Shown piece by piece: positions 1,001-14,082 of a stretch of 42,202 nucleotides of DNA (position 1 is its first letter; each line of letters opens with the position of its first letter). Below the pieces are notes generated by a model, which did no database searches, was not told the DNA's origin, and saw only the letters and a program-made list of their open reading frames with translations. The translations under genes and the position numbers were made by a program. The stretch comes from Kiritimatiellia bacterium (GTDB lineage Bacteria; Verrucomicrobiota; Kiritimatiellia; RFP12; UBA1067): assembly GCA_017525225.1 (NCBI GenBank), contig JAFXTB010000163.1, forward strand, positions 1 through 42,202, read 5' to 3'.

Positions 1001-3346
1001 GTGCATATGGAAGTACAGCGCGTACGCGGACCATGCCGAGGCCGGCTTGCCGTGCTTGCCATGCTCGCGCTTTGCGCCGCTTCGGCGAAGACCGTCCTCT
1101 TCGACTTCGAGGGGCCGAAGGGTGCGGAGGGCGTGACGCTCGTCGATGGCAGGCACTACGGCTATTCCATCACCAACGCATTTGCCACGGGCGGCGAACG
1201 TTCGTACCACATGCGGTTCTCGCAGTGGGGGGAAGATGCCGCCGGATACGACATGTATCCGTGGACGACCTTCAGGATCCCCAGGGAGCTTTCTGACTGG
1301 CGCGGCTACGACCGACTCGCCTTCGACATCGTGACCACGGGCCCGGGCGGCGACCTGTTCTCCCTACTGATACGCTCGACCAACAAGGTGGAGTCGCTGG
1401 CTTTCCGCTACAGGTGGGTCGGCCACAGCCAGGGCCTGAAGCGGTTCGTGGTCCCACTGGACAAGTGGAGCGACGAAGTGCGGGCAGACTGCCTGCACAG
1501 CCTTACCTTCATCATACGCATGCCGCAGGCGACGGACTTCTATCTCGACGAGATCGCGCTGTACAGGCCCGGCGAGACGATCCCGCCGCCGGACGGCAGA
1601 GGCGTCACGGACGACCTTTTGCCGTTCCTTGGACGGTACATCGATTCGCTCAAGGAGGGGAACGAGGAGAGCGGACGGATTGTCCGCCATGGCGCGTCGA
1701 TGCGCGCGTTCCTCGCGGATTGCGCGGCCAGGGGCACCGCCTCTGACGGGATGGCCGTGGGCCAGGCCCGTTCGACGGAGCGCGTGATGCCGCGCGATGC
1801 GTTCACGGCCCGTGCGGCGGACGAGGTGTCGGTGCGGCTCGCCAGGAACGAGACGGAGAGCTTCCAGATCGTGGTGGCGAATCTCAACGAGGACCTTCGC
1901 GACGTGGGCGTGGCCGTGGAGGGTGATTTCGTCGGCGAGGGCGGCGCGGGCACGTTCGCGGCGGCGAACGTGAGGCCGTGCGTCACCGGTTTCGGCAACG
2001 TCTACGAGCGTGCGACCTACCATGCGCATCCCGGCGACCGCGCGCATCTGGGATGGTACCCGGATCCGATACTCGACTTCCTTGAGACCGCCGACGTGAA
2101 GGGCGACGACGTGCAGAGCTTTTGGGTACGCGTGAAGGCACCGGAGGGCCAGGCGGCAGGATGCTATCGTGGCGCGCTCGTCGTATCCGCCACCCGCGCC
2201 GACGGCAGGCGCGTCTCGCGCCGCGTGCCGGCAAGGATCCGCGTGAACGCCTTCACGTTGCCAAGGACATCGCCCCTGCCGCTGATGATAACCTTCCATC
2301 CGGAGACATCCAGCACCGTGTTCGAACGGGAAGCGAGGCGGCGCATCGCAAGGGATCCCAAGTCTCCCATCAACATCTGGAGGAGGCATTTTGCGAAGTG
2401 GGTGGATTTTCTTGCCGACCACTACATCACGATGTCGTGGCTATACGGGAACGACACGGCCCAGATGAAGGACATGTACCTGCCCGCATGGCGGCGGTTG
2501 AGGGAACAGGGACGGCTGGGGGCGCACTGCATCGGCAACTGGAACTATGTTCCCGATGGTCCAGATGGAGAGAAGACATGGCGCGAAGGCATGCTCGCCA
2601 CGCTTCGGAGGAGATACGAGATGGCCAGGGCCGAAGGGTTCCTCGACGGCGCATATCTCTACGGCGCGGACGAGGTGACGATGAAGTTCATTGAGAACTG
2701 CCGCCGCGCGGCCGAGCTGCTCCATGAACACATTCCCGGTGTGCCGGTAGTCACCACCGGCTGCTGCCAGGGCGGCGGAGTGAAGGGAAGCCCCGGCGAA
2801 CCGCTTGGCGGCGTGATCGACATGTTCGTGCCCACCACCGCCGCATGGCGGCGCGGCGTGGCGGATCCATCGAAGGTACGCGCCGAAGGCCGGCAGCTCG
2901 GCTGGTACATCTGCAACAATCCGGACTACCCCTACGCCCAGATGTTCACGGAGTCCGAGCCGATAGAGGCCCGCATGCTGATGGGCATAATGGCCGCGAA
3001 GTACGACCCCGCCGCATTCCTCATCTGGCAGATATCCATCTGGAACTCCGAACATGTCGTGGAGACCGGCCCGTTCACCGGCATCCGCGAACGCACATGG
3101 ACCAACGACAACGGCGATGGATGCTGGGTGCATGTTGGCCCGGACGGCGTGCCGCTTGCGACGATCCGCCTCGAGAACTTCCGCGACGGGCTGGAGGATC
3201 TATGGTATGCAAGGCTCTACGAGAAGAAGTTCGGTAGAAAGCCCGCCATCCCGGAGACCCTTCTTCGTGATCTTCGTGACTTCTCCCGCGACCCGGCCGG
3301 TCTGGCCGCCTGGCGCGACGCGATCGCCGACGAGCTGGAGAAGTAG
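1001..3346 (+). CDS. Secreted DUF4091-type glycoside hydrolase-like protein
   Basis: This 781-residue exported protein is likely a carbohydrate-active enzyme of unknown substrate. A basic, hydrophobic N-terminus ending near CAASA (about residues 1-29) is a signal peptide. Residues about 30-190 form a jelly-roll-like module starting VLFDFEG, resembling carbohydrate-binding domains. From about 265 (ETESFQIVV) a beta-sandwich leads into a long TIM-barrel-like region. The end (IRLENFRDGLEDLWYARLYEKKFG) is typical of DUF4091 proteins, in which a 'RDGxED' stretch closes the barrel. The start may be GTG 1001 or ATG 1007. AAGGGG at 988-993 fits GTG 1001 better (7-nt spacing). It lies between the GH127 gene and another secreted gene, 22 bp apart, suggesting co-transcription. 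The family is confident; the activity is not known from sequence. Confidence 0.75.
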   Translation: MHMEVQRVRGPCRGRLAVLAMLALCAASAKTVLFDFEGPKGAEGVTLVDGRHYGYSITNAFATGGERSYHMRFSQWGEDAAGYDMYPWTTFRIPRELSDWRGYDRLAFDIVTTGPGGDLFSLLIRSTNKVESLAFRYRWVGHSQGLKRFVVPLDKWSDEVRADCLHSLTFIIRMPQATDFYLDEIALYRPGETIPPPDGRGVTDDLLPFLGRYIDSLKEGNEESGRIVRHGASMRAFLADCAARGTASDGMAVGQARSTERVMPRDAFTARAADEVSVRLARNETESFQIVVANLNEDLRDVGVAVEGDFVGEGGAGTFAAANVRPCVTGFGNVYERATYHAHPGDRAHLGWYPDPILDFLETADVKGDDVQSFWVRVKAPEGQAAGCYRGALVVSATRADGRRVSRRVPARIRVNAFTLPRTSPLPLMITFHPETSSTVFEREARRRIARDPKSPINIWRRHFAKWVDFLADHYITMSWLYGNDTAQMKDMYLPAWRRLREQGRLGAHCIGNWNYVPDGPDGEKTWREGMLATLRRRYEMARAEGFLDGAYLYGADEVTMKFIENCRRAAELLHEHIPGVPVVTTGCCQGGGVKGSPGEPLGGVIDMFVPTTAAWRRGVADPSKVRAEGRQLGWYICNNPDYPYAQMFTESEPIEARMLMGIMAAKYDPAAFLIWQISIWNSEHVVETGPFTGIRERTWTNDNGDGCWVHVGPDGVPLATIRLENFRDGLEDLWYARLYEKKFGRKPAIPETLLRDLRDFSRDPAGLAAWRDAIADELEK

Positions 3347-3368
3347 GAAAGGAGGAACCGTTACAACG

Positions 3369-4580
3369 ATGAAAGCAGAAAGACACCTAGCCACCACCTT
3401 CGCGCTTGCGCTTGCGCTTGCCGCTGGCGGTGCGGCGGACGTCGCGCCGGCCGCGCCGAAGCTCGAGAAGCTTGCGCTCATGGATTCGCTCGACATGGCG
3501 AACTGGTGCGACGTCGAGACGAAGGAGGGATGCGTGAAACTCGTCGAGGACTGCCTCAGGCCGGGCTCCACCGGCATCCTGTGGCGCGACAAGGGCGGCG
3601 GCGGATGGATGCGCTATCCGTCGAAGGAGGAGGTCGCCCCGAAGACGTCGGAATACGTGATCGAAAAGCGCCGCAACCTGCCGCGCTTCGGTGCGTACTG
3701 GGCGCTCAGGCTCGACAACCTCGACTTCGAAGTGTTCCCCTTCGTCTACGAAGAATGCCGTCGCCGCAATCTCGCGTACGGCATCCACCAGACCTACGAG
3801 GAGAACCACACGTCCAACCATTCGCAGAGCCAGTGGACGATCGAACACCCGCAGTTCTGGAACTGCGCGCTGGACGGCATACCCTGGCCGGGCCACGCAT
3901 CGCTCGCATATCCCGAGGTGATGGCGCACAAGCTCCGCTTCGCCGACGAGCACATCGCCCTCAAGCCGCAGAAGATATTCATCGACATGTGGCGCTGCGG
4001 ACACTGGAGCCTGCGCTGGGAGTACGTAAAGCCGAACCTCGACCGCTGGGCCGCCCTCTATCCGGGCGAGCCGCCGCCGAAGGATTGGAAGGACGACCGC
4101 TGGACGAGACTCTGCGCCGAATCGACGATGGCGTACCTGCGCGAATACGGCCGCAGATGCAAGGCAGCCGGGATACAGCTCGTCATAGGGCTGCCCGAGA
4201 TGGATCTCAAGGACGATTTCGCCTGGCGGCAGTACGGGCTCGACTGGAAGCTGCTGATGGCGGAGGGCACGATAAACGGCATCTGGGTCATGAACGCGAA
4301 ATACGATCCAGCCCGCGCCATGGAGTCCACGCGCGAGATCCTCGCGTACGTGAAGTCCAAATGCGTCAACGGCGGTAAGGCGTACTTCGGGGTCAACTGG
4401 TATCCCGCCCGCGGCGGCGGAATCGCGCGCTACGCGCAGCTTTCGGGCTGCACCAGCGCCGAGGCGACCAGGCGGCTCATGGAGATGCTCTCGACCCTTG
4501 GCTACGCCGGGGCCGTCTTCGAGTGCCTGGACTGCCACTGCTATCCCAAGGACGTATGCGAGGAGCTGAGAAAATGGTGA
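3369..4580 (+). CDS. Secreted TIM-barrel glycosidase-like protein, function unknown
   Basis: The protein is 403 residues. The ATG at 3369 is chosen because AGGAAAGGAGG (3346-3356) precedes it and it opens a clean signal peptide (FALALALAAGG, cleavage near residue 25). The longer frame upstream overlaps the previous gene and has no RBS. Alternating hydrophobic strands and helices, with acidic pairs in IFIDMWRCGHW, IGLPEMDLKDD and AVFECLDCHCY, look like a GH10/GH-A-type barrel. I cannot assign a family. The signal-peptide codons contain a short GCGCTT tandem repeat (about 3402-3420), which encodes the ALALAL stretch. Its last bases overlap the start of the following beta-propeller gene, so the two are translationally coupled. 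Confidence 0.6.
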   Translation: MKAERHLATTFALALALAAGGAADVAPAAPKLEKLALMDSLDMANWCDVETKEGCVKLVEDCLRPGSTGILWRDKGGGGWMRYPSKEEVAPKTSEYVIEKRRNLPRFGAYWALRLDNLDFEVFPFVYEECRRRNLAYGIHQTYEENHTSNHSQSQWTIEHPQFWNCALDGIPWPGHASLAYPEVMAHKLRFADEHIALKPQKIFIDMWRCGHWSLRWEYVKPNLDRWAALYPGEPPPKDWKDDRWTRLCAESTMAYLREYGRRCKAAGIQLVIGLPEMDLKDDFAWRQYGLDWKLLMAEGTINGIWVMNAKYDPARAMESTREILAYVKSKCVNGGKAYFGVNWYPARGGGIARYAQLSGCTSAEATRRLMEMLSTLGYAGAVFECLDCHCYPKDVCEELRKW

Positions 4581-6139: not shown

Positions 6140-7510
6140 ATGGGAAAGAAGGTATTACCGGTCTTTATGGCCGTGCTTCGCATCGCGATTGGATGGCATT
6201 TCCTCTATGAGGGCGTATGGAAGCTGATGCAGAAGGACGGCTGGAGCTGTCTGTCGTATCTCGACTCCGCGCAGGGGCCTCTGGCCTGGTTGTTCAAGTG
6301 GATGGCGTCGCAGGGATGGATCGTCGCCATTGGCGACCGGGCGGTGGAGTTCGGCCTTGTGGCGATCGGGCTCGCGCTCATCACGGGCGTGCTGGCGCGC
6401 ATAGCAGCGCTTTTCGGCATCGCTCTCATGGCGATGTTCTACTGCTGCCAGCCGCCGGAACCGTTCGCGACCGCCATGTCCGGCGCGGATGGCAGGTTCT
6501 TCCTGATCGAGCGCAACGCGATCGAGGCGGCAGGACTTCTCTTCGTGGCGGCGCTGCCCTGCTGGCGCGGATGGCTGCGCACGCTCCTGCCCGGCGCGAT
6601 CGCGCTGGCCGTCTTCGGCGGATGTTCCTGGATGCACTACCGCGCAGGCGGCTTCAACAAGGTTGCGGCCGTCACCTCCGCCACCGTGAAGGTGCACGAG
6701 TTCACGGCGCTTGCCGCCCTCAAGGCCCCGTTCGCGGACAAGGTGGAGATCGGTGGCGTCACGATATCGCGCCTTGCGTTCGGCGGCGACCTGGTGGCCG
6801 GCCACGCCCATGCGCGCGACCTCATCTGGACGGATGACTTCATGCGCCGCTACAACAGCGGCGTCACGCTCGGCCGCACCGTTCGCTACTGCCTGCATTG
6901 CGGAATCGACGCGGCGTTCGTCGAGCCTGCGTACATCGCGCAGATGGCTGCGGCCGCAAAGGCCGTGAACGGCGACATGAAGTTCTTCGCCAACTGCGCC
7001 GATGCGAAGGACGCCGCGCTTGCGGCCTCCGGCGGCGCCAAGAGCGTGTATCTGCGTCCGCAGGTGGTGGACGAGCTTGCACGCAAGGGCGATGCGGCGA
7101 AGATCTCCGCGCTCTTCACCGATCTCAAGGCGACCGGGCTTCCCGTGGGCATCGGCGCCGAGGACGTTGCGACCGTCAGGTTCTGCGTGGAGAAGGGGAT
7201 CGTGCCGGCATACTGGGTGCTGGCCTTCCATTCGCTGGACTATCCGGCGGCGACGATGGCGCAGCGCTGCAACAACATCTGGTGCACCGATCCAAAGGCG
7301 GCCGCGGCGTACATGAAGACGCGCTCCGAGCCGTGGATCGCGATCCGCTGCCTGGCCGGCGGCGCGTTCGATCCCCCAAAGGCGTACAAGTACGCCAGGG
7401 ACAACGGGGCTACGGCCGCCGCGATCGATCTGCTCGACTACCGCATCGTCGAGACCGTCAACGGCATCGTGGCGCCGCCGGCGCCTGCCAAGGCGAAGGG
7501 AGGGAAGTAG
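6140..7510 (+). CDS. DoxX-like membrane domain fused to aldo/keto-reductase-like barrel
   Basis: The protein has 456 residues and two parts. Residues 1-170 are a DoxX-like membrane domain with at least four hydrophobic segments (about 7-25, 64-85, 87-103, 127-141) and another at 150-165. Its motif R14-IAIGWHFLYEGVW recurs in the next gene (7513). Residues 201-443 are a barrel related to the Tat protein at 7985: shared stretches are TISRLAFGGDL / KLSRLLLGGNM, HxRD (H224/H85), PVGIG / PVGLG, DYP and the final DYxxVExVN. The barrel resembles aldo/keto reductases, but the Asp-Tyr-Lys-His tetrad is not apparent. Two histidines of the 7985 protein (H171, H207) are replaced here (about R306, E341), so this copy may be non-catalytic. 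RBS AAGGA is at 6123-6127. Known DoxX proteins are quinone- or thiol-linked membrane subunits; redox work is an inference. Confidence 0.75.
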   Translation: MGKKVLPVFMAVLRIAIGWHFLYEGVWKLMQKDGWSCLSYLDSAQGPLAWLFKWMASQGWIVAIGDRAVEFGLVAIGLALITGVLARIAALFGIALMAMFYCCQPPEPFATAMSGADGRFFLIERNAIEAAGLLFVAALPCWRGWLRTLLPGAIALAVFGGCSWMHYRAGGFNKVAAVTSATVKVHEFTALAALKAPFADKVEIGGVTISRLAFGGDLVAGHAHARDLIWTDDFMRRYNSGVTLGRTVRYCLHCGIDAAFVEPAYIAQMAAAAKAVNGDMKFFANCADAKDAALAASGGAKSVYLRPQVVDELARKGDAAKISALFTDLKATGLPVGIGAEDVATVRFCVEKGIVPAYWVLAFHSLDYPAATMAQRCNNIWCTDPKAAAAYMKTRSEPWIAIRCLAGGAFDPPKAYKYARDNGATAAAIDLLDYRIVETVNGIVAPPAPAKAKGGK

Positions 7511-7512
7511 TC

Positions 7513-7995
7513 ATGGAGTTTCTGGAGAAAAGGCAGAACCTCGTGGTGTCGGTCATGCGCTTCGCGCTGGGCTGGCATCTCGCGTACATGGGCGTGTGGG
7601 CGCTCACCTCGGAATGGACGCATTCGTGGGCAGGGGTGTTCCGCTGCGCCCACTGGCTGTTCGGTGGCCTCTTCCGCGCCATTGGCGGATCGGCGGCGAT
7701 GGGGGCCGTGGACCTGGCCCTCGCCTGGGCGCTCCTCGTCGCCGGCGTCCTGCTGATGCTCGGCCGTGCCGTGCGCTACGCGGCGGTGTTCGGCATATTC
7801 TACCTCGCGCTGATGTACATGCTCAACCCGCCGCATTTCGGCCATACGGGCGAAAGCCATTTCCTGTATGTGGACCGCAACGTGGTGGAGATCTGCATGC
7901 TGCTGTGCGTGATGGCCTGGGGAGGCTGCGGATGCGCAAAGGCGGAATGCCGCGAAGACGGGAACGATGGAGAAAGGAAGACCAATGAAGCCTAA
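7513..7995 (+). CDS. DoxX-family membrane protein
   Basis: A 160-residue membrane protein, normal in size for DoxX. Four hydrophobic segments lie at about 10-30, 58-75, 77-98 and 123-137. R16-FALGWHLAYMGVW and the later FLYVDRNVVE match RIAIGWHFLYEGVW and FLIERNAIE in the fused protein encoded just upstream, so the two DoxX domains are paralogues. The ATG follows the previous stop by 2 nt. The gene overlaps the next start by 11 nt, tying it translationally to the Tat-exported barrel protein. It probably forms a membrane partner for that protein. The last 25 residues are charged and cysteine-bearing (GGCGCAKAEC). Confidence 0.75.
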   Translation: MEFLEKRQNLVVSVMRFALGWHLAYMGVWALTSEWTHSWAGVFRCAHWLFGGLFRAIGGSAAMGAVDLALAWALLVAGVLLMLGRAVRYAAVFGIFYLALMYMLNPPHFGHTGESHFLYVDRNVVEICMLLCVMAWGGCGCAKAECREDGNDGERKTNEA

Positions 7996-9001
7996 TGTCA
8001 ATCGAAGGGAACTGATATTCGGCGGGGCGTCGCTGCTGGCGCTCGGCGGCGCGGGCGCGTACACGAAGGCGATGCGCTCCAAGCCAGTCGTCCGCGTGAC
8101 CGGGCCGGAGATATCGGCGTTCCTGCCGGAGCGCGACCTCGAAGGCCTCGGCCATCCGATCACCGAGTACGGGAAGATCGGCAATGTGAAGCTTTCCCGT
8201 CTCCTCCTCGGCGGCAACATGATCGGCGGCTGGGCGCACTGCCGCGACATGCGCTTCTACGACAAGCTCGTGAAGGCGTACTTCACCGACGAGCGCGTGT
8301 TCCGCAACTTCCGCATCGCCGAAGCCTGCGGGGTCAACACGATCCTCACCAACCCCGCGCTGATGCGCGTCATCAACCGCTACTGGCGCGAGGATGGCGG
8401 AAGCATCCAGTTCATCTCCGACTGCGGCTACCGTGGTGGAGTCATCGAAGGCGCGAAGGTCAGCGTGGAGAACGGCGCGAGCATGGTCTACTACCATGGC
8501 GGCATGGCCGACAGGGTGGCGCTGGTCGAGAAGGACTGGAAGAAGCTGCGCCAGTATCTCGACGAATCCCGGAAGCTCGGCGTGCCGGTCGGCCTCGGGT
8601 GCCACAACCTCAACACCGTCAAGTTCTGCGTCGAGCACGACTGCCTGCCGGACTTCTGGATGAAGACCGTGCATCGCATCGACTATCCCACGGCGCACCT
8701 GTCCGAGGACAAGGGCAAGAAGTCCGCGATCGGCCTTGGCGCCTGCGACAACCGCTTTGTCGACTGCGACCGCCAGGAGACGTTCGACTACATGGCCACG
8801 CGTCCCGAGCCGTGGATCGCGTTCAAGGTGCTGGGTGCCGGCATCGAGCATCCGCGCGACGCCTTCCCCATCTCGTACAAGGGCGGCGCCGACTTCATCT
8901 GCTGCGGGATGTACGACTACCAGGTGGTTGAGGACGTGAACATCGCCAACGCCTACTTCGAAAAGGGTCTGCCCGAGCGCAAGCGTCCGTGGCACGGATG
9001 A
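7985..9001 (+). CDS. Tat-exported aldo/keto-reductase-like barrel protein
   Basis: The protein has 338 residues. The start at 7985 is preferred over 7967 because GGAGAAAGGAAG (7969-7980) is its RBS and the protein then opens with a Tat signal (N6-RRELIFGGASLLALGG). Residues 60-320 form a barrel of the kind annotated aldo/keto-reductase-like in planctomycetes and verrucomicrobia. Conserved points shared with the fused paralogue at 6140 are H85-x-R87-D88, H230 in TVHRIDYP and D311-Y312. H171 and H207 are present here and absent there, suggesting this is the active copy. The usual AKR catalytic tetrad is not evident, so cofactor and substrate are unknown. Tat export implies folding, perhaps with a cofactor, before transport. 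The stop lies 9 bp from the convergent trpF stop. Confidence 0.7.
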   Translation: MKPNVNRRELIFGGASLLALGGAGAYTKAMRSKPVVRVTGPEISAFLPERDLEGLGHPITEYGKIGNVKLSRLLLGGNMIGGWAHCRDMRFYDKLVKAYFTDERVFRNFRIAEACGVNTILTNPALMRVINRYWREDGGSIQFISDCGYRGGVIEGAKVSVENGASMVYYHGGMADRVALVEKDWKKLRQYLDESRKLGVPVGLGCHNLNTVKFCVEHDCLPDFWMKTVHRIDYPTAHLSEDKGKKSAIGLGACDNRFVDCDRQETFDYMATRPEPWIAFKVLGAGIEHPRDAFPISYKGGADFICCGMYDYQVVEDVNIANAYFEKGLPERKRPWHG

Positions 9002-9010
9002 CCGCCCACG

Positions 9011-9625
9011 CTATCTCGGAGGTAATTCCGCGAGAAACGCGTCCAGCAGGGCTGTGGACTTGACGCCGGGCGCAGTCTCCAGCGAGCTGTTCACATCTAC
9101 TATGTCCGCGCCCGATGTGGCGGCGGCCGCTGCATTGGCGGCGGAGATGCCGCCCGCCAGTACCACGCGGCGCCCGGCGCGCTTCAGGTCTGCTATGCGC
9201 GACCAGTCCGCCAGCCGCCCGGTGCCGCCGCTTCTTGCGCCATCTCGGCCGTCTAGAAGCGTCGCATCCTCTCCCGCACAGTCCTTTTCGTCGCCTGCGA
9301 GCCTCCACACCTCGCAGCCCTGCGCCTTGATGGCCGCCACCTTCTCCGATCCGTATGCGCCGTGCAGCTGCACGACGTCCAGAGGAACGGCCTTCGCGAT
9401 CTGGAGTATCTCCGGTACGTCCTGCTCCACGAACACCCCGACGAATCGCGGGGCGTCCACTCCGGTTTCATGGCGTACGTTATGGGCGATCTCCCTTGCG
9501 CGCGCCGCGTCCACGCGCCTTGGCGAACCGGCGGCGAAGATGAATCCGAGGTAGTCGATGCCGCGTCTTGCGGCCTCGAGCGCGAACGCGGCATCTGTGA
9601 TGCCGCATACCTTCAGCTGAGGCAT
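9011..9625 (-). CDS. trpF: Phosphoribosylanthranilate isomerase
   Basis: Catalyses the Amadori rearrangement of phosphoribosylanthranilate to CdRP in tryptophan synthesis. It is 204 residues long, as usual for TrpF. The N-terminal LKVCGIT carries the catalytic cysteine C7. YLGFIF, VGVFV, VQLHG and the phosphate-binding LAGGI / DVNSSLE stretches follow in family order. The start at 9625 is chosen since LKVCGIT must be near the N-terminus; it overlaps the end of trpA by 13 nt. It is the last gene of trpCBAF, and its stop nearly meets the convergent gene at 9001. No terminator is visible between them. Confidence 0.95.
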   Translation of the reverse strand: MPQLKVCGITDAAFALEAARRGIDYLGFIFAAGSPRRVDAARAREIAHNVRHETGVDAPRFVGVFVEQDVPEILQIAKAVPLDVVQLHGAYGSEKVAAIKAQGCEVWRLAGDEKDCAGEDATLLDGRDGARSGGTGRLADWSRIADLKRAGRRVVLAGGISAANAAAAATSGADIVDVNSSLETAPGVKSTALLDAFLAELPPR

Positions 9626-10368
9626 GGCTTCTTTCCGTCGGCAAGGCATTTCACCAGGGCGGAGCCGACGATGAAGCCGTCGGCATGGCGGCAGACCTCT
9701 TCGCCCTGCGCCTTCGTGGAGATGCCGAATCCGGCCGCCACCGGGATGTGCGCCACGGCGCGTATCGCATCGAGGCGGGCGGTGAGGTCGGGCGGCAGCT
9801 CCGTGCGCGCGCCGGTCGTCCCCTTTACCGTGATCACGTAGAGGAAGGAGTTTTCCAGCCCGGCCTCGCTTTCAACCACGCGCTCGATGGGCGTGTTGGG
9901 TGCGATCAGCGGGATGTATCCCACGCCGCGCGGCTTGAGGAATTCCAGCAGCTCGTCGCGTTCCTCCAACGGCAGATCCACCGCCAGGACGGCGTCGATC
10001 CCGGCATCGGCTGCCGCATCCGCGAACGCCTCCAGCCCCTTGGAGAAGATGAGGTTGTAGTATGAGAAGAGGACTATCCCCGTATCCGGATGGCGTGCGC
10101 GCAGGCGCTTTGCCAGCGCGATGGTCCAGTCGAGAGTGGTCCCCTGCCTCAGCGCCTCGTATGCGGCGGAGCGGATGACGCCGCCATCGGCGAACGGATC
10201 GGAGAAGGGCACGCCCAGCTCCACTATGTCGGCGCCGCCGGCGATGACGTCGTCCACGGCCTGTTCGCTGGCGTCAGGCGTTGGAAAGCCCATCGTGAGG
10301 TAGGCGATGAACGCGCCGCGATTCTCCGCCTTGGCCTTTGCGAATGCGTTGGTGATACGCTGTTTCAT
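9613..10368 (-). CDS. trpA: Tryptophan synthase alpha chain
   Basis: Cleaves indole-3-glycerol phosphate to indole and glyceraldehyde 3-phosphate; indole is channelled to TrpB. It is 251 residues, slightly short of the usual 265-270. The catalytic acids E50 (DIVELGVPFSDP) and D61 (FADGGVIR) are in place. The YIPLIAPNTP loop, the TGARTELP mobile loop and the phosphate-binding GFGIS are present. An RBS-like AAAGGAAT lies just upstream on the minus strand. It is separated from trpB by 21 nt and overlaps trpF. Confidence 0.95.
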   Translation of the reverse strand: MKQRITNAFAKAKAENRGAFIAYLTMGFPTPDASEQAVDDVIAGGADIVELGVPFSDPFADGGVIRSAAYEALRQGTTLDWTIALAKRLRARHPDTGIVLFSYYNLIFSKGLEAFADAAADAGIDAVLAVDLPLEERDELLEFLKPRGVGYIPLIAPNTPIERVVESEAGLENSFLYVITVKGTTGARTELPPDLTARLDAIRAVAHIPVAAGFGISTKAQGEEVCRHADGFIVGSALVKCLADGKKPCLS

Positions 10369-10389
10369 TGGAGATTCCTTTCTTTGTCG

Positions 10390-11580
10390 CTAGACGTTGG
10401 ACGCGCTTGCGTGGGCCTTCTTGTACCGCATGATGTTCTCCATGTCCTTGTCGCCACGTCCGGAGAGGTTGACGAGCAGTATCTTGTCCTTGTCCATCCC
10501 GGGCGCGCGCCTTATGGCTTCGGCGAGAGCGTGGCTCGACTCGAGCGCGGGGATGATCCCCTCGAACCTGCAGAGGGCGTCGAAGGCGGCGATGGCCTCG
10601 TCGTCGTCGACCACGGTGTATTCGGCGCGTCCTGTATCGTGGAGATGGCAGTGCTCCGGCCCTACGCCTGGATAGTCAAGCCCGGCGGAGACGGAATAGG
10701 TGTCGAGGATGTTGCCGTCGTCGGTCTGCAGGAGCATGGTCTTTGCACCGTGCAGCACGCCGAGCCTGCCGCCGTTGATGGATGCCGCGTGCTCGCCGCT
10801 GGCGATACCCTTGCCGCCCGCCTCTACGCCCACGAGCTTCACTTCGGGATCGTCGATGAATCCGGCGAAGAGCCCCATGGCGTTCGATCCGCCGCCGACG
10901 CAGGCGATGGCTTCGTCCGGCAGGCGGCCGTACTTCTCCAGGCACTGCCGCCTGGCCTCCACGCCGATGACGCTCTGGAAGTCGCGCACCATCTCCGGAT
11001 ATGGCGCCGGGCCGGCCACCGTGCCGATCACATAGAAGGTGTCGTCGCAGTTCGCCACCCAGTCGCGCAGGGCCTCGTTCATTGCGTCTTTGAGGGTGGC
11101 GCTGCCTTCGGAGACGGCGTTGACCTTGGCGCCCAGCATCTTCATGCGTTCGACGTTCGGGGCCTGCCGTTCCACGTCGATCGCGCCCATGTATACCTCG
11201 CAAGGCATCCCGAAAAGCGCGGCGACCGTCGCCGTGGCGACTCCGTGCATTCCGGCGCCGGTCTCGGCGATGAGCCGCTTCTTGCCCATGCGCCTGGCGA
11301 GCAGCGCCTGGCCGATCGTGTTGTTCACCTTGTGTGCGCCGGTGTGGTTCAGGTCTTCGCGCTTCAGGAGTATGCGCGCGCCGCCCAGATGCTCCGAAAG
11401 GCGCTTCGCGAAGGTGATCGGGCTTTCACGCCCCACGTAGTCGCGCAGGATCTCGTTGAACTCCTGCGAGAACGATGGATCCTGCTTCGCCGCCTCGTAT
11501 GCGGCCTCAAGCTCCCTCAGCGGGGCCATCAGCGTCTCCGCCACGTACTGGCCGCCATAGATTCCGTAATGTGCATTCAT
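10390..11580 (-). CDS. trpB: Tryptophan synthase beta chain
   Basis: A PLP enzyme condensing indole with serine to give tryptophan. It is 396 residues, normal for TrpB1. The ATG at 11580 gives the canonical start [17 protein letters not shown]; the longer frame only adds residues antisense to the intergenic spacer. K84 in HTGAHKVNN binds [12 protein letters not shown] holds the catalytic glutamate, and GGGSNAMG binds the cofactor phosphate. It lies 46 nt downstream of trpC and 21 nt upstream of trpA. Confidence 0.97.
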
Positions 11581-11626
11581 GTTCTTCTGTTCCTTGGCAT
11601 TGGTCCTGTTTCTATTTTCCCCGACA

Positions 11627-12418
11627 TCATGCGCCCTCGGGCCGCATAAGCTCACACAGCCTGTCGCCGGGGTTTTCCGCGCGCATGAGCGCCGTGCCCA
11701 CGAGAAAGCCGTCCGCGCCTGCCGCCTGCGCCCTGCGGATCGCCTCCGCCGTATGCATCCCCGACTCGGCGATGCGCAGGCATGGACGCGGTATCTGCCC
11801 CACGAGCGTCTTGAGGAGCGATACGTCGCAGGCGAAGTTGCGCAGGTTGCGGCAGTTCACGCCGACGATCCGCGCGCCGGACTGGACGGCCCGCTCGATC
11901 TCCCCCGCATCGTGCGTCTCCACGAGCGCGGCAAGGCCGAGACCGTGCGCGAAGGCCAGAAGCTCCTTCAGCGCGGGGTCGTCCAGGACGGCCGCGATCA
12001 GCAGGACGGCGTCCGCCCCGGCCGCGCGCGCCGCCGCCACCTGGTATGGCGACGATATGAAATCCTTGTAGAGGATGGGGATATCCACGATCCTTCGAAC
12101 GGCCGAGAGGTATTCCTCCGAGCCGAGGAACCTGTGCGGTTCGCAGAGGACCGAGAGCGCCGCCGCGCCTGCGCCTTCAAGCGCCTTCGCCAGCTCGACG
12201 GGGTGGAACGCCTCGCGAATCATCCCTTCCGAGGGCGATGCCCGCTTCAGCTCCGCAATGACGCGCGGTGTGGACGAAGCCTGGAACGCCGCCGCGAAGT
12301 CGCGTGGCGCTGGCGCCGCCTCAGCGCGGCGCAGCATCTCTACGAACGGTACCTCCGCCTCGCGCCTTGCGGCATCGTCGCGGCGCGCCTCCGTCAGCTC
12401 TGCAAGTATATCGTTCAT
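11627..12418 (-). CDS. trpC: Indole-3-glycerol phosphate synthase
   Basis: Closes the indole ring of CdRP to form indole-3-glycerol phosphate. It is 263 residues. Catalytic stretches [13 protein letters not shown] (E and K), [27 protein letters not shown] and IAESGMHT are all present. The ATG at 12418 has GGTGGAG just upstream; the longer frame would start inside the promoter. It heads trpC-trpB-trpA-trpF. The earlier pathway genes trpE, trpG and trpD are not in the window, so the operon is split in this genome. With a start site predicted near 12460, the leader is only about 40 nt, too short for a classical trp leader peptide and attenuator. Confidence 0.96.
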
Positions 12419-12466
12419 GGTCTCTCCACCTTGTTCCCGTCTATGGCCAAGGTTCAAAAAACACTG

Positions 12467-12497
12467 ATTATACCACATTCCCCGCCACAGGTGTGGC
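12467..12497 (-). promoter_or_regulatory. trpC promoter with overlapping palindrome (candidate operator)
   Basis: On the minus strand TATAAT (12472 down to 12467) is preceded by TGG, an extended -10. No good -35 is visible. Instead, the perfect inverted repeat GCCACA-GG-TGTGGC (12484-12497) covers the -35 position. A repressor bound there would block the promoter. The binding protein is unknown; a tryptophan-responsive repressor is a guess. Confidence 0.55.
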
Positions 12498-12520
12498 ATA
12501 AAATAAGTAATGTTCAGTTA

Positions 12521-12540: not shown

Positions 12541-12621
12541 CGAGGTCGGCCTAATTCTCTTGCCTTCCAAGAGAGGGTTGTGATAGACTATCCATCGTCT
12601 AAAGGAGAAGGAGGCTTGACA

Positions 12622-14082
12622 ATGAGGAACGATGCGAATGGGCAGAGCAGGCGCGATTTTCTTGCCGGCGCGGGCTTTGCCGCGATGTCCATGATGGCAG
12701 GCGGATGTGCAAGCGGGTTCAAGCTCGGCGGCAACGGATCAATGAGCGGCTTCAGGGCGCCCCGCCTCGAGCGGGTACGCGTAGGGGTGGTGGGCGTGGG
12801 ATCGCGCGGCACCTACGCGCTCAAGCGTCTCGCCTTCATCCCGGGCGTGGACGTCGCGGCGTTCTGCGACATCAATGAAGAGGCGATGAAGCGCTGCCGG
12901 GACTTCCTTGCGGAGAAGAAGCTCCGCCCAGCCCGCGAGTTCCTGGGGCCGGAGGCGTACAAGGGGCTCTGCCAGTGGGACGGCGTGGACGTGGTGTACG
13001 CCTGCGTGCCGTGGAAGCTGCATGCGCCGGTGGCGATCGAGGCGATGCGTGGCGGCAAGCATGCGTTCGTCGAGGTTCCCGCGGCGATGGACGTCGACAG
13101 CTGCTGGGAGCTCGTCAAGACCAGCGAGGCCACCCGCCGCCACTGCATGATGCTGGAGAACTGCTGCTACGGCGAGAACGAGATGCTCGCGCTGAACATG
13201 TGCAGGCTGGGCGTCCTCGGCGAGACGGTGTACGGCGAGGCGGGCTATCTGCACAGCGGCAAGACGCGCGGCTTCAAGCTCAGCGAGTTCCGCGCCGAGT
13301 GGTACCAGGAGCACCGCGGCAACTACTATCCCACCCACGGCCTCGGCCCGGTGGCCCAGTACATGAACATAAACCGCGGCGACCGATTCGACTACCTGTG
13401 CTCGATGGAGACGAAGTCCGTTGGCGACCTGATCCGCGAGGGCGATCCGCGCTGGAACGGCGAGAACCTGGAGACGTTCAAGAAGTACAAGATCGGCACG
13501 TACAACTCCTCGCTCATCCGCACCGTCAACGGCAAGGTGATACTGCTCAACCTCTCCTGCAGCGCGCCGCACCCGTATAGCCGGATCAACACGATCCAGG
13601 GCACGCACGGCATCTTCATGGACTATCCGCTCAGGATCGACATCGAGGATACGCCCGGATCCGGTCCGCACGAGGTGCACAGGGGAAGGAACAACGAGAA
13701 CTACGACAGCAAGCGCACCGCCATGTACCGCGAAAAGTACATGCATCCGCTCTGGAAGCAGATCGGCGAGCTGGCGAAGAAGGCCGGCGGACATGGCGGC
13801 ATGGACTTCCTCATGGACCTCAGGTGGGTGTACTGCCTCCAGAACGGCCTGCCGCTCGACATGGACGTGTACGACCTTGCCTCATGGAGCTGCCTGTGCG
13901 AGATAACGGAGAAGTCGCAGGCCAGGGGCGGCGAACCGACAAAGATCCCCGACTTCACTGACGGCGCATGGAAGACCATGCAGCCACTCGGGATCGTGAC
14001 GATAGATGTCTCCAAGATGGACTTCTCGAACGTCGGCAAGGCCGGGCCGCAGCAGACGATCGGGCATTCCAAGGAAGGCTGA
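12622..14082 (+). CDS. GH109-like NAD-dependent glycosidase (alpha-N-acetylgalactosaminidase family), Tat lipoprotein
   Basis: The protein has 486 residues. The ATG at 12622 follows AAAGGAGAAGGAGG (12600-12613). The N-terminus has a twin-arginine motif (S9-RRDFLAGAGF) followed by a lipobox ending at C29, so it is likely a Tat-exported lipoprotein. Residues about 53-64 (RVGVVGVGSRG) form the Rossmann NAD loop. YPTHGLGPV (about 236-244) and GHGGMDFLMDLR (about 393-404) are hallmarks of GH109, whose characterised members remove alpha-GalNAc by an NAD redox mechanism. Substrate specificity within the family is broader than first reported, so the sugar is inferred. It is followed after 4 nt by a second Tat oxidoreductase, suggesting the two act together on exported substrate. 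Confidence 0.85.
   Translation: MRNDANGQSRRDFLAGAGFAAMSMMAGGCASGFKLGGNGSMSGFRAPRLERVRVGVVGVGSRGTYALKRLAFIPGVDVAAFCDINEEAMKRCRDFLAEKKLRPAREFLGPEAYKGLCQWDGVDVVYACVPWKLHAPVAIEAMRGGKHAFVEVPAAMDVDSCWELVKTSEATRRHCMMLENCCYGENEMLALNMCRLGVLGETVYGEAGYLHSGKTRGFKLSEFRAEWYQEHRGNYYPTHGLGPVAQYMNINRGDRFDYLCSMETKSVGDLIREGDPRWNGENLETFKKYKIGTYNSSLIRTVNGKVILLNLSCSAPHPYSRINTIQGTHGIFMDYPLRIDIEDTPGSGPHEVHRGRNNENYDSKRTAMYREKYMHPLWKQIGELAKKAGGHGGMDFLMDLRWVYCLQNGLPLDMDVYDLASWSCLCEITEKSQARGGEPTKIPDFTDGAWKTMQPLGIVTIDVSKMDFSNVGKAGPQQTIGHSKEG

Follow-up and report, generated by a model that had tools for sequence, protein, structure and literature searches.

Duplicated DoxX–barrel genes in a Kiritimatiellia bacterium: a predicted flavinylated periplasmic oxidoreductase whose parts may be divided between two copies

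The locus and its setting

The window, the whole 42,202-nucleotide stretch analysed here (contig JAFXTB010000163.1 of a Kiritimatiellia bacterium), belongs to a metagenome-assembled genome (MAG) of 4.2 Mb (G000, contig C61), and its closest matches are gut and rumen Kiritimatiellae. Three consecutive genes on the plus strand form a cassette. In the first, F, a DoxX membrane domain is joined to a diverged barrel of the aldo-keto reductase (AKR) type; the other two encode a DoxX protein and a barrel, S, separately. The features are as follows.

6140–7510, plus strand: fused gene F, 456 aa, DoxX (four transmembrane helices), fifth transmembrane helix (TM5), linker and diverged AKR-like barrel (open reading frame, Pfam, alignment, model)
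6140–6553, plus strand: DoxX domain of F, four predicted helices, H5-29, H59-82, H86-103 and H125-138 (Pfam PF07681, 30.4 bits; model)
6572–6643, plus strand: TM5 of F (aa 145–168), without a twin arginine (model, alignment of relatives)
6665–6685, plus strand: flavinylation-type motif A-A-V-T-S-A-T (aa 176–182) in the flexible linker of F, candidate FMN acceptor T182 (alignment)
6731–7477, plus strand: barrel of F, with universal residues replaced, N78 by D217, H207 by E341, K227 by L361 and K281 by R403 (alignment, structure match)
7513–7995, plus strand: split DoxX gene, 160 aa (open reading frame, match to the DoxX domain of F)
7985–9001, plus strand: split barrel gene S, 338 aa, overlapping the split DoxX gene by 11 nt (open reading frame, model)
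7985–8080, plus strand: Tat signal at the N-terminus of S (NRRELIFGG...), a homologue of TM5 in the fused proteins (alignment)
8090–8110, plus strand: position at which S has lost the motif, now V-R-V-T-G-P-E (aa 36–42) (alignment)
8162–8974, plus strand: AKR-like TIM barrel of S, keeping N78, H85, R87, D88, H207, K227, H230 and K281 (model, alignment)

A first-pass annotation of this DNA had described the protein at 6140 as the sum of the next two genes, and the latter as overlapping by 11 nt. Both statements hold: the overlap occupies 7985–7995, and the two parts of F align with the split genes at 29% identity for the barrels (E=2e-43) and 32% for the DoxX parts (E=1e-12), a similarity that, by these alignments, is well beyond chance. 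The source assemblies are MAGs, and the gene calls derive from open reading frames. The order of F, DoxX and Tat barrel recurs in gut and rumen Kiritimatiellae MAGs (L003–L015) wherever the contig is long enough, and because the same cassette is present in so many of them, an assembly or frameshift artefact is argued against; a sequencing artefact as the cause of the split was rejected on the same ground. In one of these loci (L011) the second DoxX–barrel pair is itself fused (500 aa), and a Hydrogenedentes MAG (L017) carries a single fused gene.

Behind the cassette, at 9011–12499, lie trpF (Pfam PRAI) and open reading frames reading like trpA, trpB and trpC, all on the minus strand, so that the cassette ends at a convergent boundary. 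Also around it are a protein with a GH123 catalytic domain (1001–3346), an apparently exported protein that has no Pfam match (3366–4580) and a Tat-type GH109/Gfo-Idh-MocA protein (12580–14082). The GH123 and GH109-type genes suggest a glycan-degrading surrounding, which is a statement about the setting only. Around the loci of relatives, a conserved partner gene that would point to a substrate was sought and none was found, the recurrent neighbours being only scattered Gfo/Idh/MocA-type genes (cluster c2, five loci) and a beta-propeller pair.

DoxX and barrel: family and fold

The DoxX domain of F scores above the Pfam PF07681 cut-off (30.4 versus 23.6 bits) and shares its four-helix core with the DoxX/DoxD family (PF07681/PF04173), while the split DoxX protein falls below the cut-off (14.3 bits) yet clearly aligns with the domain of F. 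DoxD is a subunit of thiosulfate:quinone oxidoreductase (TQO); the NCBIfam TQO DoxD model gives 11.7 bits here against a cut-off of 300, and by this test the locus does not encode a TQO subunit. Searches by sequence for a solved relative of DoxX or of the barrel gave nothing useful, the yield being weak similarity of the IMPDH loop type. That DoxX and barrel belong together, as had been proposed at first pass, is borne out by fusions in two phyla, in Kiritimatiellae and Hydrogenedentota.

The AlphaFold model of the S barrel (pLDDT 76, pTM 0.76) is predicted to be a (beta/alpha)8 TIM barrel with the N-terminal hairpin typical of AKRs. In a structural search with this model (VIA list), AKR-fold chains fill the top (Z 19.3–16), led by PA4992 (PDB 4exa/4exb, Z 19.3); the same protein is still the first match of the F barrel, but more weakly and among other TIM barrels. 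The resemblance is one of fold. No family in Pfam or NCBIfam covers the barrel, and the Pfam AKR profile matches neither F nor S nor the relatives tested. As the first-pass annotation had remarked for both copies, the canonical Asp-Tyr-Lys-His tetrad is not evident on reading the sequence alignments. Unlike PA4992 and its kin, the S-type barrel is exported and conserves other residues.

Some genomes (G546, with L083, L085 and L088–L091; G006, G096, G119 and G158) encode up to about ten stand-alone barrels exported by Tat, which suggests a diversified family of periplasmic enzymes. A distant sister family in Verrucomicrobiota (L066–L081; about 260–300 aa, no evident signal peptides, TRLIIGANPFGGYSHQ...) has N78, H85, H207 and K281 in common with the barrel, and the four members tested have no significant Pfam match.

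Membrane topology and export

The model of F comprises the four DoxX helices, a fifth helix at 145–168, a low-confidence, presumably disordered linker at 174–193 and then the barrel. Its charges fit an inside N-terminus, with MGKK before TM1 and an arginine between TM4 and TM5, and five helices starting from inside place the barrel outside. The barrel is thus predicted to be periplasmic, and neither such a cytoplasmic location nor a lack of DoxX–barrel co-occurrence in other genomes, the two results that would have refuted the first-pass proposal, was seen. A cytoplasmic AKR was rejected on this predicted topology together with the Tat signals.

Among the fused relatives, 34 of 35 carry a twin arginine directly before TM5, an internal Tat signal of the form RRxx-hydrophobic. 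The mean hydrophobicity of their TM5 is 1.49, as against 2.20 for the best DoxX helix, and 2.5 Lys/Arg residues follow it. The F proteins have departed from this pattern: the twin arginine is missing in window F and in 10 of 11 F proteins overall, TM5 hydrophobicity is 1.87, and 0.91 Lys/Arg follow the helix. By alignment, the Tat signal at the N-terminus of S is one and the same element as TM5 of the fused proteins. Membrane proteins with five helices that use both Sec and Tat have been described, namely a Rieske homologue, Sco3746 and a polyferredoxin (PMC5449189), and the fused relatives resemble them in having five helices, a twin arginine directly before TM5, positive charges after it and a globular C-terminal domain. 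They differ in their DoxX core, which that paper does not mention, and in the AKR-like barrel; window F differs further by loss of the twin arginine, so that it is the wider family that fits.

A flavinylation-type motif in the linker

In fused proteins of the ancestral type, from Kiritimatiellae and Hydrogenedentota, the linker carries the motif D-x-x-[ST]-[GS]-A-[TS], its first position D or E, about 37–39 residues before the GGN core of the barrel in the alignment of fused proteins. The motif is present in 53 of 56 fused proteins and in none of 60 unfused barrels, duplicates removed (Fisher p=7e-30, a test that ignores shared ancestry). All 42 representatives end the motif with A followed by T or S, and 40 of them open it with D or E. 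It closely resembles the published target of the flavin transferase ApbE, D-x-x-[ST]-G-A-[ST], of which seven residues suffice, a change of D to A having a minor effect and G to A lowering flavinylation to about half; serine at the glycine position is not reported there (PMC12052999). The full published form is found in 15 fused relatives, and in one linker (L040) a sub-threshold FMN_bind match lies exactly over the motif (E=0.017). In window F the variant reads AAVTSAT and in other F-type proteins EAVTSAT, whereas S has lost the motif (VRVTGPE). Also conserved are a lysine at position +2 from the acceptor and, beyond it, a Phe/Leu pattern. In one protein (L103), a tandem duplication of about 17 residues between motif and barrel (TFRFAQLNELKGKVPH twice) moves the motif from 38 to 54 residues ahead of the core.

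Further indications come from apbE itself. A PF02424 profile search of 68 Hydrogenedentota genomes found apbE as the immediate neighbour of a fused gene, in the same orientation, at four loci from three of the genomes: upstream with a gap of 121 bp (L144), downstream at 51 bp (L145), and downstream with overlap (L146 and L147). The neighbouring apbE genes have Pfam E-values from 1.6e-55 to 6e-88, and the adjoining motifs are all canonical (DAFSGAT, DAFSGAT, DAMSGAS and DAVSGAS). The four proteins fall on two well-separated branches of the tree; coming from three genomes, the loci are not fully independent. About 0.05 such loci would be expected by chance, a rough figure based on 26 fused genes and an assumed apbE density of two per 5.9 Mb. 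No adjoining apbE was seen at the Kiritimatiellae fused loci examined, and the window's fused gene has none either, the window genome encoding ApbE at two loci (PF02424) on other contigs. Mere co-occurrence in a genome carries no information, as most genomes of these phyla encode ApbE (66 of 68 and 233 of 288).

The departure of window F from the published motif has parallels in its own genome. An RnfG-type FMN_bind protein, in the same gene run as RnfC, carries EAITSATITS, and an RnfD-like frame between the RnfC and RnfG genes carries EAVTTATPL. Because Rnf subunits are known ApbE substrates elsewhere, E for D and S or T for G can be read as a local dialect of the flavinylation motif. RnfG-type FMN_bind proteins of this Kiritimatiellae family (L210, L220, L180–L209) have TSAT, TAAT or TGAT, often with E for D; at the level of sequence, these forms are a lineage dialect of the ApbE motif. 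The Thr or Ser of the linker is the likely redox cofactor site, the predicted acceptor of FMN. Elsewhere in the window genome (L212:2317-5081), its second apbE-like gene directly follows the gene of a membrane protein in which c-type haem motifs occur (Pfam hits Cytochrome_C7/C3); this may be a further unit for electron transfer outside the cytosol.

Fusion, duplication and fission

A quick IQ-TREE phylogeny of 101 barrels with SH-aLRT support recovers an F clade (11 rows, support 100) on a very long stem of 2.31 changes per column and an S clade (8 rows, support 99), both nested inside the fused proteins (support 99). The fused state is, by this tree, ancestral, and the split pair of the window a secondary fission. 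The first-pass annotation had treated the fusion as Rosetta-stone evidence for a DoxX–barrel partnership; the association stands, and the direction is the reverse, from one gene to two. The basal member of the S clade (L011) is still fused to DoxX with the motif already gone, hence loss of the motif preceded fission between TM4 and TM5. The fused gene would have been duplicated in tandem in the window's lineage. Copy S would have retained Tat export and the conserved residues of its barrel; it would have lost the flavin motif first and been split between TM4 and TM5 afterwards, giving the two genes that overlap. Copy F would have kept DoxX, TM5 and the flavin motif while losing the twin arginine and several universal barrel residues.

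N78, H207 and K281 are present in 90 of 90 barrels outside F, including the distant family that lacks signal peptides, whereas in all 11 members of the F clade H207 is replaced by E, K281 by R and N78 by D or E. K227, universal in exported barrels, is L or V in F, and the C-terminal RxRxW is lost; H85, R87, D88 and H230 are retained. Two histidines had been noticed at first pass as lost from F, and both replacements are real (H171 to R306, H207 to E341), but only H207 is universal outside the F clade, H171 being unconserved in the family (mostly Q). The "catalytic plus structural pair" proposed on that basis comes close, the evidence favouring a catalytic barrel plus a flavin carrier.

Alternative explanations

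Three other readings have to be weighed. The barrel could be an ordinary NAD(P)H-dependent AKR that is merely exported or fused, as the AKRs heading the structural matches to S would allow, but the absent Pfam match, the lack of an evident tetrad, the different set of universal residues (N78, H85, H207, K281) and Tat export to the periplasm, which is not known to contain free NADPH, leave this reading with very little probability. Hardly more probable is that F is degenerating into a pseudogene, which would leave the split S pair as the only one that matters. The long stem and the loss of universal residues, twin arginine and RxRxW would fit decay, yet F is an open frame in the related genomes examined, mostly at about 65–75% identity to window F, with H207E and K281R fixed throughout the clade and motif and DoxX conserved.

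More weight, though still little, attaches to the reading that the motif has a structural role behind TM5, in export or as part of the linker, and bears no flavin, DoxX and barrel forming a periplasmic module with another cofactor or none. This is close to what was proposed at first pass, where a periplasmic redox module of DoxX and barrel was suggested and the ApbE-type motif, the internal Tat signal of relatives and the replacements in F beyond two histidines were overlooked. The non-canonical window copy speaks for it, and the conserved Lys and Phe/Leu pattern imply that the whole linker may be structurally constrained. Against it stand the canonical D-x-x-S-G-A-[TS] in distant members, apbE adjoining at four loci, the sub-threshold FMN_bind match on the motif and the shared E/S dialect in RnfG of the same genome.

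Proposed function and implications

Computation shows the architecture, the predicted fold, the conservation of the motif, the apbE genes adjoining in relatives, the fission and the replacement of residues. These findings are best accommodated if the locus encodes a duplicated, subfunctionalised, membrane-tethered periplasmic oxidoreductase flavinylated by ApbE, with flavin carrier and catalytic barrel divided between the copies, a reading to which we assign a probability of roughly two in three. In the ancestral protein, the four-helix DoxX part, presumably inserted by Sec, would contact the membrane redox pool, the twin-arginine TM5 would export the barrel by Tat, the linker Thr or Ser would receive FMN from ApbE, and the AKR-like barrel would act on a substrate in the periplasm. 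In this arrangement DoxX would connect the quinone pool with the covalent FMN, which in turn would exchange electrons with the barrel's active site, a path that would replace NADPH. Since S keeps the residues without the motif and F the reverse, flavin and contact with the membrane would come from F and the active site from S, F most likely serving, in a putative F–S complex, as the flavin-carrying membrane partner of the catalytic barrel. More tentative, and on balance doubtful in its full form, is the broader history in which an AKR-fold family exchanged NADPH for a covalent, ApbE-attached linker FMN on a dual Sec-Tat DoxX anchor, and duplication in gut Kiritimatiellae then separated carrier and catalyst into an obligate pair.

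Known ApbE-flavinylated extracytosolic proteins include NqrB/NqrC, RnfD/RnfG, FMN_bind, DUF2271 and DUF3570 proteins (PMC8238504, PMC11334425). The fused family is similar to them in its extracytosolic [ST]GA[ST]-type motif, its membrane redox partner and the presence of apbE in the genome, adjoining in some relatives; it differs in that the motif sits in a linker between DoxX and an AKR-like barrel, with no FMN_bind domain. Neither survey mentions DoxX or aldo-keto reductases. In the open-access literature no description of DoxX with flavinylation, FMN or AKR was found, nor any paper treating DoxX, ApbE and flavinylation together; a prior description may exist elsewhere. What is new, on this reading, would be the combination of domains in a membrane redox protein flavinylated in the manner of ApbE substrates.

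If this is true, the family would constitute a new class among ApbE-flavinylated extracytosolic proteins and another family of dual Sec-Tat membrane proteins, and DoxX, whose function has long been unclear, would acquire a concrete redox function, anchoring a flavin enzyme to the membrane. The two window copies, each lacking what the other has kept, would offer a testable case of subfunctionalisation followed by gene fission.
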